From the NCBI GenBank assembly GCA_029556545.1, contig JAKQEQ010000057.1, positions 1-50,184 of the forward strand: DNA of 50,184 nucleotides, written 5' to 3'. This DNA comes from Candidatus Hydrogenedentota bacterium. Lineage in GTDB: Bacteria > Hydrogenedentota > Hydrogenedentia > Hydrogenedentales > JAGMZX01. A model generated the notes under the pieces. The model made no database searches and was not told where the DNA came from. It saw only the letters and a program-made list of their open reading frames with translations. Shown in pieces: positions 7,208-29,591 of this stretch (its first letter is position 1; each line of letters begins with the position of its first letter). A program made the translations under genes and the position numbers.

Positions 7208-8038
7208 TTACATCTCCGCAATCGAGGCTTTGGCCTTCTGCACCAGTTCCGAATTCAGGCCGCCATAGTGCCAGGCGGGGTCGTCCTCCATGAACTTGAC
7301 GCCCTTGCCCTTCACCGTGTTGCATACGATCATCGTCGGAGACCCGGTATGCGCCTGGGCCGCCTCGATGGCGTCCGCGAGCGCGTCGAGATCGTGCCCG
7401 TCCACGACGCGCGTGTTCCAGCCGAAAGCCTTCCACTTGTCCGCGACGGGTTCGAGGCTCATGACCTCCTCGGTCGGTCCGTCGATCATCATGCGGTTGC
7501 GATCAAGGAAGCCGATTAAGTGCGACAACTTGTAGTGGGCGGCGGCCATGGCCGCCTCCCAGATCGAGCCCTCGTTCGATTCACCGTCGCCGATGACGCA
7601 GTACACGCGCCAGTCCTTCTTCAGGACACGCGCGCCGAGCGCCAGCCCGACCGCCTCGCCGAGCCCGTGGCCCATCGAGCCGGTGGACACCTCGACGCCG
7701 GGCACTTTCTTGCTGTCGAGATGCATGCCGAGCATCGAGTCCGTGTGGTTGTATTCTTCGAGGTGCTTGAAGTCGAAGAAGCCGCGTTTGCACAGCACCA
7801 CCCCGTGGCCGACGCCGCCGTGCCCCTTGCTGAGCACGAAGCGGTCGCGATCCTCCCACTTTGGGTTCTTCGGGTCGATACGCAGGTACTTCCAATACAG
7901 GATCGTGACAATCTCCGTCATGCTGAGCGAGCCGCCGATGTGCGCGCCGCCCGACCAGCCCGTCACGTCCACGATGGTCTCGCGGATTTCCCGCCCGATG
8001 CGTTTGAGGTCCGTGCGTTCTTGCGATGTCAATGCCAT
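7208..8038 (-). CDS. transketolase, N-terminal subunit
   Basis: A 276-residue thiamine-diphosphate-binding half of transketolase. Visible motifs: SGGAHIGGSLSMTEI (N-terminal phosphate region), LSKGHGGVGHG, and the diphosphate/Mg2+ motif GDGESNEGSIWEAAMAAAHY. It partners with the C-subunit encoded 3 bp downstream. A good ribosome-binding site AAGGAG lies 6 nt before the ATG. Just beyond that RBS a heptamer repeat array begins (8067). The natural upstream region of the gene is therefore replaced or interrupted by the array, and any read-through from the aminotransferase gene must cross a 730-bp repeat cassette. Confidence 0.93.
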   Translation of the reverse strand: MALTSQERTDLKRIGREIRETIVDVTGWSGGAHIGGSLSMTEIVTILYWKYLRIDPKNPKWEDRDRFVLSKGHGGVGHGVVLCKRGFFDFKHLEEYNHTDSMLGMHLDSKKVPGVEVSTGSMGHGLGEAVGLALGARVLKKDWRVYCVIGDGESNEGSIWEAAMAAAHYKLSHLIGFLDRNRMMIDGPTEEVMSLEPVADKWKAFGWNTRVVDGHDLDALADAIEAAQAHTGSPTMIVCNTVKGKGVKFMEDDPAWHYGGLNSELVQKAKASIAEM

Positions 8039-8066
8039 GAGCTACTCCTTGAGGGGCTGGGAATTA

Positions 8067-8164
8067 GGGACTGGGGACTAGGGACTAGGGACCAGGGACC
8101 AGGGACCAGGGACCAGGGACCAGGGACCAGGGACCAGGGACCAGGGACCAGGGACCAGGGACCA
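8067..8164 (+). repeat. heptamer tandem array GGGACNA (left arm)
   Basis: Fourteen perfect-length 7-bp units: GGGACTG, 2 x GGGACTA, then 11 x GGGACCA. It is G-rich on the plus strand. It lies between the transketolase N gene and the four-helix-bundle gene, and is the inverted counterpart of the array at 8728-8795. Confidence 0.97.
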
Positions 8165-8243
8165 GGGGGGATGCGGCGACGAGAAGAATGTCCTTGTATC
8201 CGTGCCACGCGCTCCAGTGGCCGCCGTCGTTGCCCACAGTCGC

Positions 8244-8660
8244 CTATTCCTGATTCAGACCATAGAACCCGCTGTCGTTTTCCTCCCGAACCATACCCTC
8301 CTTGTTACGAAGACTGCGTTGTAGTGCTTGGAGCATCTTCCCAACTTCTTCGCATAACTTCAAGTTCGCCTGCGCTTCTGATTCGTCCAGATAGTCCAGG
8401 CGTTCACAGATTCGTATCTGCGTATCGAGTTCCGCCACGGAACCGTGCGCGAAAGACAGATGGTGGATATACCCTCTGGTCGATTCACGCCCGTTGCCTT
8501 CCGCGATGTTGGATGCTATAGAGACCGCCGCCCGTCGCATCTGCCCGGCGAGTCCGTATACCTCGCGTCGCGGCAGTCTCGCCGTAACCTTGTAAACCTG
8601 CACGACGAGGTCCATGGCCGATTGCCAAACCTTCAGGTCGCGATAGCACCTGATATCCAT
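8244..8660 (-). CDS. four-helix-bundle protein (S23 / 23S rRNA IVP family)
   Basis: A 138-residue member of the S23/TIGR02436 four-helix-bundle family, recognised by RDLKVWQSAMDL at the start and by GQMRRAAVSIASNIAEG and AELDTQIRICERLDYL later. Relatives occur in intervening sequences of 23S rRNA genes, as free-standing intergenic genes, and structurally as Avd of diversity-generating retroelements; the cellular role of the free-standing form is not known. A strong RBS (GGAGGGAGGA) precedes the ATG. The gene is bracketed by two G-rich heptamer arrays in inverted orientation, suggesting a discrete cassette. No reverse transcriptase is nearby. Confidence 0.93.
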   Translation of the reverse strand: MDIRCYRDLKVWQSAMDLVVQVYKVTARLPRREVYGLAGQMRRAAVSIASNIAEGNGRESTRGYIHHLSFAHGSVAELDTQIRICERLDYLDESEAQANLKLCEEVGKMLQALQRSLRNKEGMVREENDSGFYGLNQE

Positions 8661-8727
8661 ACGGTTCCTCCCTCCGGCTCAAGCTACTTGTAAACCCTGC
8701 CAGATTGCGCTTACTGTCTCCCTTTTC

Positions 8728-8795
8728 TCCCTAATCCCTAATCCCTAATCCCTAATCCCTAGTCCCTAGTCCCTAGTCCCTACTCCCTACTCCCT
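8728..8795 (-). repeat. heptamer tandem array GGGANTA (right arm)
   Basis: Nine full 7-bp units plus a partial one. Read on the minus strand they are GGGAGTA (x2), GGGACTA (x3) and GGGATTA (x4). It belongs to the same family as the array at 8067-8164 but is inverted relative to it. The stop codon of the aminotransferase gene (TAG, 8773-8775) lies inside this array. Confidence 0.96.
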
Positions 8796-10011
8796 CAAAC
8801 GCCGCATCCGCGATATCCCACGTGCGCTGGAAGTCCTCGTCCGTGTGCGCCGTCGAGAGGAACCAATTGTGGTGCGAGGTGAAGAACGCGCCGCGGCGCG
8901 TGCATTCGGCGCACCAGTCCTGATGAAGCATGAGAGAAGGGTCCTCGGTAATGCGGTAGTAGGCCATTCCGGGGTCGCCGGTCACTTTGAGGGTGTAGCC
9001 GTGGCTCTTTGCGATTCGGACGAGGCCATCGTTGAGTTTGCGGCCCTTTTCCCGAAGAAGGTTGGGCGCGTCGAGGCGTCGAAGTTCCTGCAGCGTGGCG
9101 AGCGCTGCGGCCATCGGCCCGGCGGAGAACCAGTAGCTGCCGGTGTGGAATACCTTCGCTGCCGCGCTCTTCAGCGCCTCGACGCCGACCAGCGCGGAGA
9201 TGGGGTAGCCGTTGGCAATGGCTTTGCAGAAGCAGATGAGGTCCGGCTTGAACCCGAAATGCTCGCACGAGCCGCCCATGTGCAAACGGAACCCGCAGCG
9301 CACGTCATCGATGATGAACACAATGCCATGTTTGCGCAACAACTTCTCGACGCTGGACCAGTAGCCGTCCGCGGGCAATTCGCTGTCCGCGAAGACAGGG
9401 TGGTGGTACGGCGTCGCGATAAACCCCGCGACGTCGTTCGCGTGGCGGTTGATGGCTTGTTCGAGCGTGCCGAGGTCGTTCCACGGGATGCGAATGACGT
9501 GCTGGTGGTCCGCCTCGATGAGGCCATGGTGGCCCGGTGCCTGCATCCACGGGGACGTGCCGTGATAGCCGCCCTGGATGCCGATAATCTTGCTGCGGCC
9601 CGTGGCCGCCCGCGCGATCATGACCGCGTAATTCGTCACGTCCGCGCCGTTCTTCGCGAAGAAGGCCCAATCGGCGATGGGCACGAGGTCCACCAGGTAC
9701 TCCGCCAGTTCCACCATGCGCGTCGACGCGATGCTGTTCGAGTCCGCCTCGCGCATCTGCGCTTGGTATGCCTCGTCGACGACCGGGTTGCCGTGCCCGA
9801 GGATCATGGGGCCGTAGGCGCACATGTAGTCGATGAACTCGTTACCGTCCACGTCCCAGAACCGCGCGCCCTTCGCGCGAGCCCCGAAAAAGGGATACGC
9901 ACTCACCGGCGGACACGGCGCGGGGCTGAAATGGCCGTAAATCCCGCACGGGATAACCTGGACCGCCCGCTGGAACCAGGCGGCGGATTGGGGATACTCG
10001 AAGGTCTTCAT
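8773..10011 (-). CDS. class III aminotransferase, glutamate-1-semialdehyde aminomutase-like
   Basis: A 412-residue PLP-dependent class III aminotransferase. Motifs seen: FWDVDGNEFIDYMCAYGPMILGH, typical of the GSA-aminomutase branch, near residue 51; AFFAKNGADVTNYAVMIAR at ~117; FIIDDVRCGFR with the PLP-ring Asp at ~236; and CFCKAIANGYP with the Schiff-base Lys at ~263. I start at ATG 10011 (MKTFEYPQSA), since the 18 residues upstream are not family-like. The usual family member is a similar length, but the last residues GVGSRD and the stop are encoded by heptamer repeat units, so the C-terminus has been rewritten. The substrate is unlikely to be heme GSA on context alone; a sugar or ketol product of the adjacent transketolase is an inference. 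Confidence 0.87.
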   Translation of the reverse strand: MKTFEYPQSAAWFQRAVQVIPCGIYGHFSPAPCPPVSAYPFFGARAKGARFWDVDGNEFIDYMCAYGPMILGHGNPVVDEAYQAQMREADSNSIASTRMVELAEYLVDLVPIADWAFFAKNGADVTNYAVMIARAATGRSKIIGIQGGYHGTSPWMQAPGHHGLIEADHQHVIRIPWNDLGTLEQAINRHANDVAGFIATPYHHPVFADSELPADGYWSSVEKLLRKHGIVFIIDDVRCGFRLHMGGSCEHFGFKPDLICFCKAIANGYPISALVGVEALKSAAAKVFHTGSYWFSAGPMAAALATLQELRRLDAPNLLREKGRKLNDGLVRIAKSHGYTLKVTGDPGMAYYRITEDPSLMLHQDWCAECTRRGAFFTSHHNWFLSTAHTDEDFQRTWDIADAAFEGVGSRD

Positions 10012-10103
10012 TTCACCGGACTCCGTAAGACGAAGTGAATCAAGGCTCGGACACATGACGCGCAATCACGACATCTATAACAGACTCAGCAATTCCTCCA
10101 CAC

Positions 10104-29398: not shown

Positions 29399-29591
29399 GG
29401 CGCGGCCGCACCAACACGGGGAGCTTCGGATCATTCCTGAGTCTTGCATGGCGAGTTCTGGATTCCCGCTTGCGCGGGAATGACGCAAGGAGCGCGGCCG
29501 CGCCAACATCGAGGCGCTTCGGATCATTCCCGAGTCTTGCATGGCGAGTTCTGGATTCCCGCTTGCGCGGGAATGACGCAAGGAGCGCGGC
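29399..29591 (+). repeat. 93-bp direct repeat pair with hairpin core
   Basis: Two copies with a 93-bp period (29399-29491 and 29492-29584, plus the start of a third). Each holds GGATTCCCGC-TTGC-GCGGGAAT, a perfect hairpin, with GGATCATTCC upstream and GACGCAAGGAGCGCGGC downstream. This is the class of bacterial intergenic repeat often mistranslated as 'RHSRASGNPE'. It fills the space between the LpxH-like gene and the HicB cassette. Confidence 0.92.

Follow-up and report, generated by a model that had tools for sequence, protein, structure and literature searches.

The window (the whole stretch of Candidatus Hydrogenedentota bacterium DNA analysed here, 50,184 nt) carries a class-III aminotransferase gene (8773-10065, minus strand) and, downstream of it in an operon that has been interrupted, the gene for a transketolase N-terminal subunit (7208-8038, minus strand). 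The two lie on the same strand and, as a sequence-only reading had supposed, look like one operon, which is conserved in relatives. Between them sits an S23/IVP four-helix-bundle gene (8244-8660, minus strand, 138 aa), the only open reading frame enclosed by two arrays of 7-bp repeats. Array 1 (about 8067-8167, or 8066-8167 by TRF and sequence; plus strand) consists of 14 units of GGGACTG, GGGACTA or GGGACCA and forms the 3' arm relative to the S23 gene; array 2 (8728-8795, minus strand) has about 10 units of GGGAGTA, GGGACTA or GGGATTA and forms the 5' arm. The G-rich strands of both point inward, confirming the earlier description of inward arrays of 14 and 9+ units around one S23/IVP gene.

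The inserted element as a whole extends from about 8045 to 8797 (minus strand), its limits being approximate as the arrays merge into the flanks; the corresponding junctions of 13 relatives are empty. The 3' end of the aminotransferase gene has been replaced by array sequence, so that its reading frame terminates within the array and its last six residues, GVGSRD, are array-encoded. Under one uniform scoring, the window has no period-7 arrays besides these two, and a scan for all other periods from 4 to 13 returned a single short array, of period 11. Unlike a classical insertion sequence or transposon, the window element has no transposase between its arms, where S23 is the sole gene, and unlike an rRNA intervening sequence it lies outside rRNA, between the aminotransferase and transketolase genes.

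The S23 protein

The window S23 protein matched PF05635 (23S_rRNA_IVP) with an E-value of 2.8e-38 and 130.8 bits against a cut-off of 33.8, and TIGR02436 with 123.6 against a cut-off of 24. The only Pfam matches were 23S_rRNA_IVP and bAvd, the latter weak, with the Avd profile falling under its cut-off. The predicted fold (pLDDT 92.9) is the four-helix bundle of 2gsc and 2rld, and the model aligned best with 2gsc_B (XCC0516, Z 21.5), followed by 2rld_E (Z 18.4) and the Avd protein of diversity-generating retroelements (DGR; Z about 15). Among 40 diverse members of the family, Q40, R43, A44, I52, E54 and E77 were invariant. Profile searches recognised no nuclease, transposase or catalytic motif in S23, and from its Pfam matches it is not a Y1/HUH tyrosine transposase of the kind found in REPIN-RAYT systems. 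The protein is presumably a homopentamer, judging from the five chains per crystal entry and from a description cited in PMC4990558. The solved structure 2gsc is that of the Xanthomonas protein XCC0516, which is probably the product of the S23 gene found between accB and accC in this group (see below). A second S23 subgroup, with a RAGTSIGANVEEA motif (L075, L087, L088), has heptamer arrays too, with T-rich or A-rich units.

Inverted heptamer arms at S23 loci of many phyla

Of 30 S23 loci, the majority belonging to the same order, 15 had period-7 arrays near the gene on the left and 18 on the right, and no array of another period between 4 and 13 turned up at them. When a further 79 loci from many phyla were scanned, long arrays numbered 17 and 23 on the two sides near the gene, as against 27 in 553 kb farther off. 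Matched inverted arms, defined by an ungapped arm score of 13 or more, were present in 91 of 111 S23 loci and in 20 of 400 mismatched flank pairs. Similarly, a flank-to-flank repeat of at least 11 bp was inverted in 71% of 112 loci and direct in 12.5%, roughly a six-fold excess of the inverted form; mismatched flanks gave 2.5%. The best period was 7 in 74 of 82 arms, next to no arrays of other periods being seen, and the G-rich strand was directed inward on both sides of the S23 loci.

The heptamer itself varies among elements and is common to both arms of each, with GGGTATA, CGGGGTC, AGTTGAT, GGCAGTC and AGTGGTT among the units encountered. After phasing, the units share the motif YAGKNNN, with an information content of 3.42 bits, where 20 shuffles of the units gave 2.56 ± 0.11. 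The GGGAYNA motif proposed earlier describes this element alone; what S23 loci have in common is the 7-bp period and a unit resembling YAGKNNN, the letters of which vary among elements. The reading of the locus as a mobile cassette was itself supported and proved to be general, S23 genes of many phyla being flanked by inverted heptamer arrays.

The S23 gene has the sense of its neighbours in 57 of the 75 loci with agreeing neighbours, and a quarter are antisense. This preference for the operon sense suggests either that transcription may matter or that antisense insertions are selected against. On cyanobacterial plasmids the arms of S23 genes are four heptamers long. Of these, the one in Anabaena sp. 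90 (L347, 2001-2369) separates cas6 from cas4 in a type I-D CRISPR operon, and the one in Nostoc edaphicum (L348, 2001-2369) is antisense and separates nrdB from nrdA.

Gene and arrays are absent together from empty sites

At the aminotransferase-transketolase junction, 13 relatives have 22-198 bp between the two genes, with neither S23 nor heptamers. The one congener (G001) has at the same junction a decayed S23 gene (33% identity, one stop) and degenerate arrays, which argues that the insertion predates the split of the two and that gene and arrays decayed together. At nuoC-nuoD of Bosea the element is present in 3 of 41 species, and in 12 species a clean junction of 14 bp, free of heptamers, joins the two genes. 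In Xanthomonadaceae, an element occupies accB-accC at 30 distinct loci, and in 19 species the junction measures 8-108 bp and S23 is absent. Since orthologous sites free of S23 are also free of the repeats, the arrays belong to the insertion, and this comparison of filled and empty sites shows a gene and arrays that appear to insert together as a unit. Two patterns would have spoken for the contrary, namely orthologous S23 loci always free of arrays and arrays placed at random relative to S23; neither was observed.

No target-site duplication was evident on comparing the empty and filled nuoC-nuoD junctions of Bosea, the flanks of which have diverged, and no genome was found to carry near-identical S23 copies at separate sites. 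A candidate recent transposition on two Calothrix plasmids was rejected, as the S23 copies there have identical neighbours and belong to a larger segmental duplication. About 20 of the 41 Bosea species carry an unrelated small gene at nuoC-nuoD, by eye GFA-like and cysteine-rich (L216-L219, L222-L224, L226-L236, L238, L239), and two more (L220, L237) have other unrelated open reading frames there; this junction, in a respiratory operon, is an insertion hot spot.

The accB-accC arms of Xanthomonadaceae

Exactly four units were counted in 26 of 30 5' arms and in 22 of 30 3' arms at accB-accC. Depending on the species, the unit is GGGATTC, GGGAATC, GTGATTC/G, GTGAATC or GGGAATG, with GGGAATC arms flanking S23 in L257, L261 and L274. 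The class of heptamer differs between species, and the two arms of one locus usually have the same class, which suggests copying from one arm to the other or joint replacement of both. The arms represent a conserved site, more than slippage alone. The arms of the window element have probably been expanded by slippage from about 4 units to 14 and 10. In some Xanthomonadaceae (L256, L267-L270, L273) the S23 frame continues across the 3' arm as far as the beginning of accC, and no stop interrupts it in the 5' arm; the ends of the protein may therefore be encoded by heptamers. Heptamer loci reportedly occur in Xanthomonas strain-typing schemes.

Dispersed arrays accompany S23

All 14 tested genomes with an accB-S23-accC arrangement contained between 19 and 209 matches to two heptamer patterns. 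By comparison, 11 S23-less Xanthomonadaceae genomes contained none, apart from one with three matches at two sites; a twelfth genome (G130), with S23 at another site, also had none. A scan for period-7 arrays of any unit, over 400 kb per group, found 9 real arrays with S23 and none without, the 9 including 3 convergent and 0 divergent pairs. A weakly resolved AccC tree calls for at least 8-9 switches between presence and absence of S23 at accB-accC, so the contrast in arrays is not one of a single clade against another.

The unit of the dispersed arrays also follows, imperfectly, that of the resident element. Across 15 genomes whose elements have differing units, AGTGGYT arrays occurred mainly where the S23 element has an AGTGGYT unit, and GGCAGTM arrays occurred in Bosea and Rhizobium only. 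In G188, G118, G157 and G109 the accB-accC arms were one base off the commonest dispersed unit found. Xanthomonadaceae genomes also contain gene-less pairs with arms as in S23 elements, in which an inner AGC motif stands at one position in 24 of 47 arms; their spacers, of 19-203 nt, are mutually unrelated save for the arm edges. An array had an inward-facing inverted partner in 10 of 32 cases and an outward-facing one in 1 of 32. In Xanthomonadaceae the dispersed sequences are thus REPIN-like, being inverted pairs with diverse spacers that are tied to S23, and this comparison of genomes shows arrays that apparently depend on the presence of S23. One genome of this family, G109, carries a GGGAATC run that reaches at least about 60 units (C1:326880-327319 and beyond).

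A candidate mobile element acting in trans

We propose, with a probability of about 0.72, that S23 and its inverted heptamer arms constitute a mobile element whose S23 protein acts in trans in the manner of REPIN/RAYT systems, a reading built on sequence comparison. The element, of about 450-750 bp, would insert whole into short intergenic junctions, usually in the operon sense. Its arms would serve as terminal inverted repeats whose G-rich strands face inward, each built canonically of four copies of a G/T-rich unit with a conserved AG. Acting on the same arms elsewhere in the genome, the S23 protein of the resident element would then disperse single arrays as well as convergent arm pairs that lack the gene and enclose arbitrary spacers, much as RAYT maintains REPINs. 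The S23 ring may read the heptads on single-stranded DNA or RNA, one per subunit, and a hairpin of single-stranded DNA may be the substrate. As mentioned above, S23 has no known catalytic motif, which weighs against this reading, and we therefore propose that the ring binds the heptad arms and that strand transfer is carried out by host enzymes or by an activity of S23 that has escaped recognition. Cutting and copying could fall to host replication or repair enzymes. The window element looks like one member, with unusually long arms, of an apparently undescribed class.

A bolder form of this proposal, which we offer tentatively and at somewhat short of even odds, is that S23 is the trans-acting pentameric ring of a bacteria-wide class of heptamer-ended mobile DNA, reading heptad-spaced AG and having no transposase or reverse transcriptase domain. 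In that form the ring would drive both insertion and homogenisation of the arms, and the class would cover rRNA intervening sequences, the GGGAATC repeats of Xanthomonas and the cyanobacterial heptamers.

A different reading, which we regard as unlikely, places the function of the arms at the RNA level. Within the transcript they would pair into a long stem, as in rRNA intervening sequences cut by RNase III, or serve as binding sites for S23, as spaced triplets do for TRAP; S23 would then be either a regulator that binds RNA or a splicing-like parasite, with the dispersed arrays as its target sites. The agreement of S23 sense with both neighbours at most loci is in keeping with this, as are the strong pairing of the window arms in RNA, the fold that S23 shares with Avd, itself part of a DGR ribonucleoprotein, and the rRNA insert of Coxiella, which has three heptamers before the S23 ORF and is excised by RNase III (PMC4990558). 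However, selection on an RNA stem was unsupported by a direct count of arm differences, of which 97 would be G:U on the sense strand and 100 on the antisense strand, and this lack of a sense-strand wobble bias speaks against it; an RNA duplex comparison over the whole 250-nt flanks was too noisy to use. Moreover, a quarter of the elements are antisense, the gene-less pairs resemble inserted DNA with unrelated spacers, and the complete absence of arrays at empty sites suits insertion and not regulatory sites arising in place.

Rather improbable, in our estimate, is that S23 is a passenger or accessory and that an unrecognised enzyme of the host or of the element, such as a Y1 transposase encoded elsewhere, moves both the elements and the gene-less pairs. 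The lack of a recognised nuclease or transposase motif in S23 would fit, and REPINs are indeed moved by a protein encoded elsewhere (PMC8049555). Against this, the dispersed arrays track S23 presence over about nine changes, the window element has no other gene between its arms, and S23 lies between such arms across many phyla.

It is very improbable that the arms arise by a retroelement- or telomerase-like addition, in which both broken ends are extended by reverse transcription of a heptamer template. S23 is structurally related to Avd, the partner of the DGR reverse transcriptase, and in both host flanks it is the 3' side that the G-rich strand prolongs, as it does at telomeres. Yet at E ≤ 0.001 RVT_1 went undetected in 9 of 19 host genomes, namely the window's genome (estimated to be 96% complete) and eight other hosts that include two Bosea with the element. 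A requirement for reverse transcriptase was rejected on this ground, and the result speaks against a DGR-like or telomerase-like route. Like the lack of a sense-strand G:U bias in the arms, it gives no support to the RNA- or repeat-dependent mechanism that had been suggested for the arrays from the sequence alone. Least tenable of all are passive simple-sequence repeats, that is, slippage-born heptamers with S23 there by chance or inserted into them: array lengths do vary in the window and elsewhere as if slippage-expanded, and heptamer repeats are enriched in bacteria (PMC4692102), but this reading is already contradicted by the absence of heptamers at empty sites, by arms that are inverted and matched and not direct, by the four units kept over a bacterial family and by the lack of arrays in S23-less genomes.

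Relation to known systems

The trans-acting mobile element proposed here resembles the rRNA intervening sequences of Leptospira and Coxiella, in which an S23 ORF lies in an insert bounded by inverted repeats and for which mobility has been hypothesised; in Coxiella the number of heptamers before the S23 ORF varies between strains (PMC4990558). It differs in that the present elements lie between protein genes, both arms are heptamer arrays, the unit varies by element and gene-less copies are dispersed. With REPIN-RAYT it shares a vertically kept single gene and many dispersed, gene-dependent inverted pairs with short and diverse spacers, as described for REPINs (PMC8049555). In contrast, the S23 arms are tandem heptamers and not REP palindromes, and the protein is a four-helix bundle and not a tyrosine transposase. 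Avd of the DGRs has the same fold (see above), but the window's genome yielded no reverse transcriptase.

Rehm et al. (2015; PMC4692102) described the GGGAATC heptamers of Xanthomonas as abundant, four-unit, often convergent and unexplained, and reported G-rich heptamers in Nostoc also (GGGGAYT); they found no general association with mobile elements and S23 was not mentioned. The same unit, four-unit preference and convergent pairs recur in the accB-S23-accC arms and the dispersed pairs analysed here, whereas the window unit, GGGACYA, is another heptamer of the same pattern. The TAACTGA repeats described in Beggiatoaceae are likewise dispersed heptamer arrays; a repeat-binding protein has been suggested there as the mobile element, again with no mention of S23 (PMC4679880). 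Open-access literature searches found nothing that links heptamer repeats to free S23 genes, and the only paper found with both S23 and heptamers was that on the Coxiella intervening sequence (PMC4990558). If the proposal is true, the mobility of S23 rRNA inserts, the function of an orphan family (2gsc, 2rld) and the origin of the Xanthomonas and Nostoc heptamers would have a common cause, and bacteria would gain a replicating-sequence system independent of every known transposase and reverse transcriptase fold.

Other features of the arms and of the window's genome

Passenger genes were sought between S23 and distant arms (L134, L099, L090), where convincing cargo was absent; the far array of L134 adjoins an apt-like gene on the opposite strand. 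A role of the heptamers as stop codons was likewise rejected, stops of any kind on the G-rich strand numbering 41 against 32.8 ± 3.9 in shuffles, an excess of about 2 s.d. TAG occurs in 34 of 83 units, and stops on the C-rich strand lie farther above the shuffles (30 against 14.0 ± 2.9).

Elsewhere in its genome, the window element is accompanied by about nine more arrays of the GGGACYA type, all of them single, and at one locus (L042) TCTGAAA and GGGACCA arrays adjoin one another (1678-1720 and 1774-1834). That genome carries another S23 gene (L079, 1400-2150; C192:25342-25695), which has TTTAGGG arrays that are direct, not inverted, and is followed by an apparent degenerate second S23 copy. 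Within the window itself, a 93-bp unit occurs twice in tandem at 29400-29591, with the palindrome GGATTCCCGCTTGCGCGGGAATGAC inside, and is an unrelated intergenic repeat.
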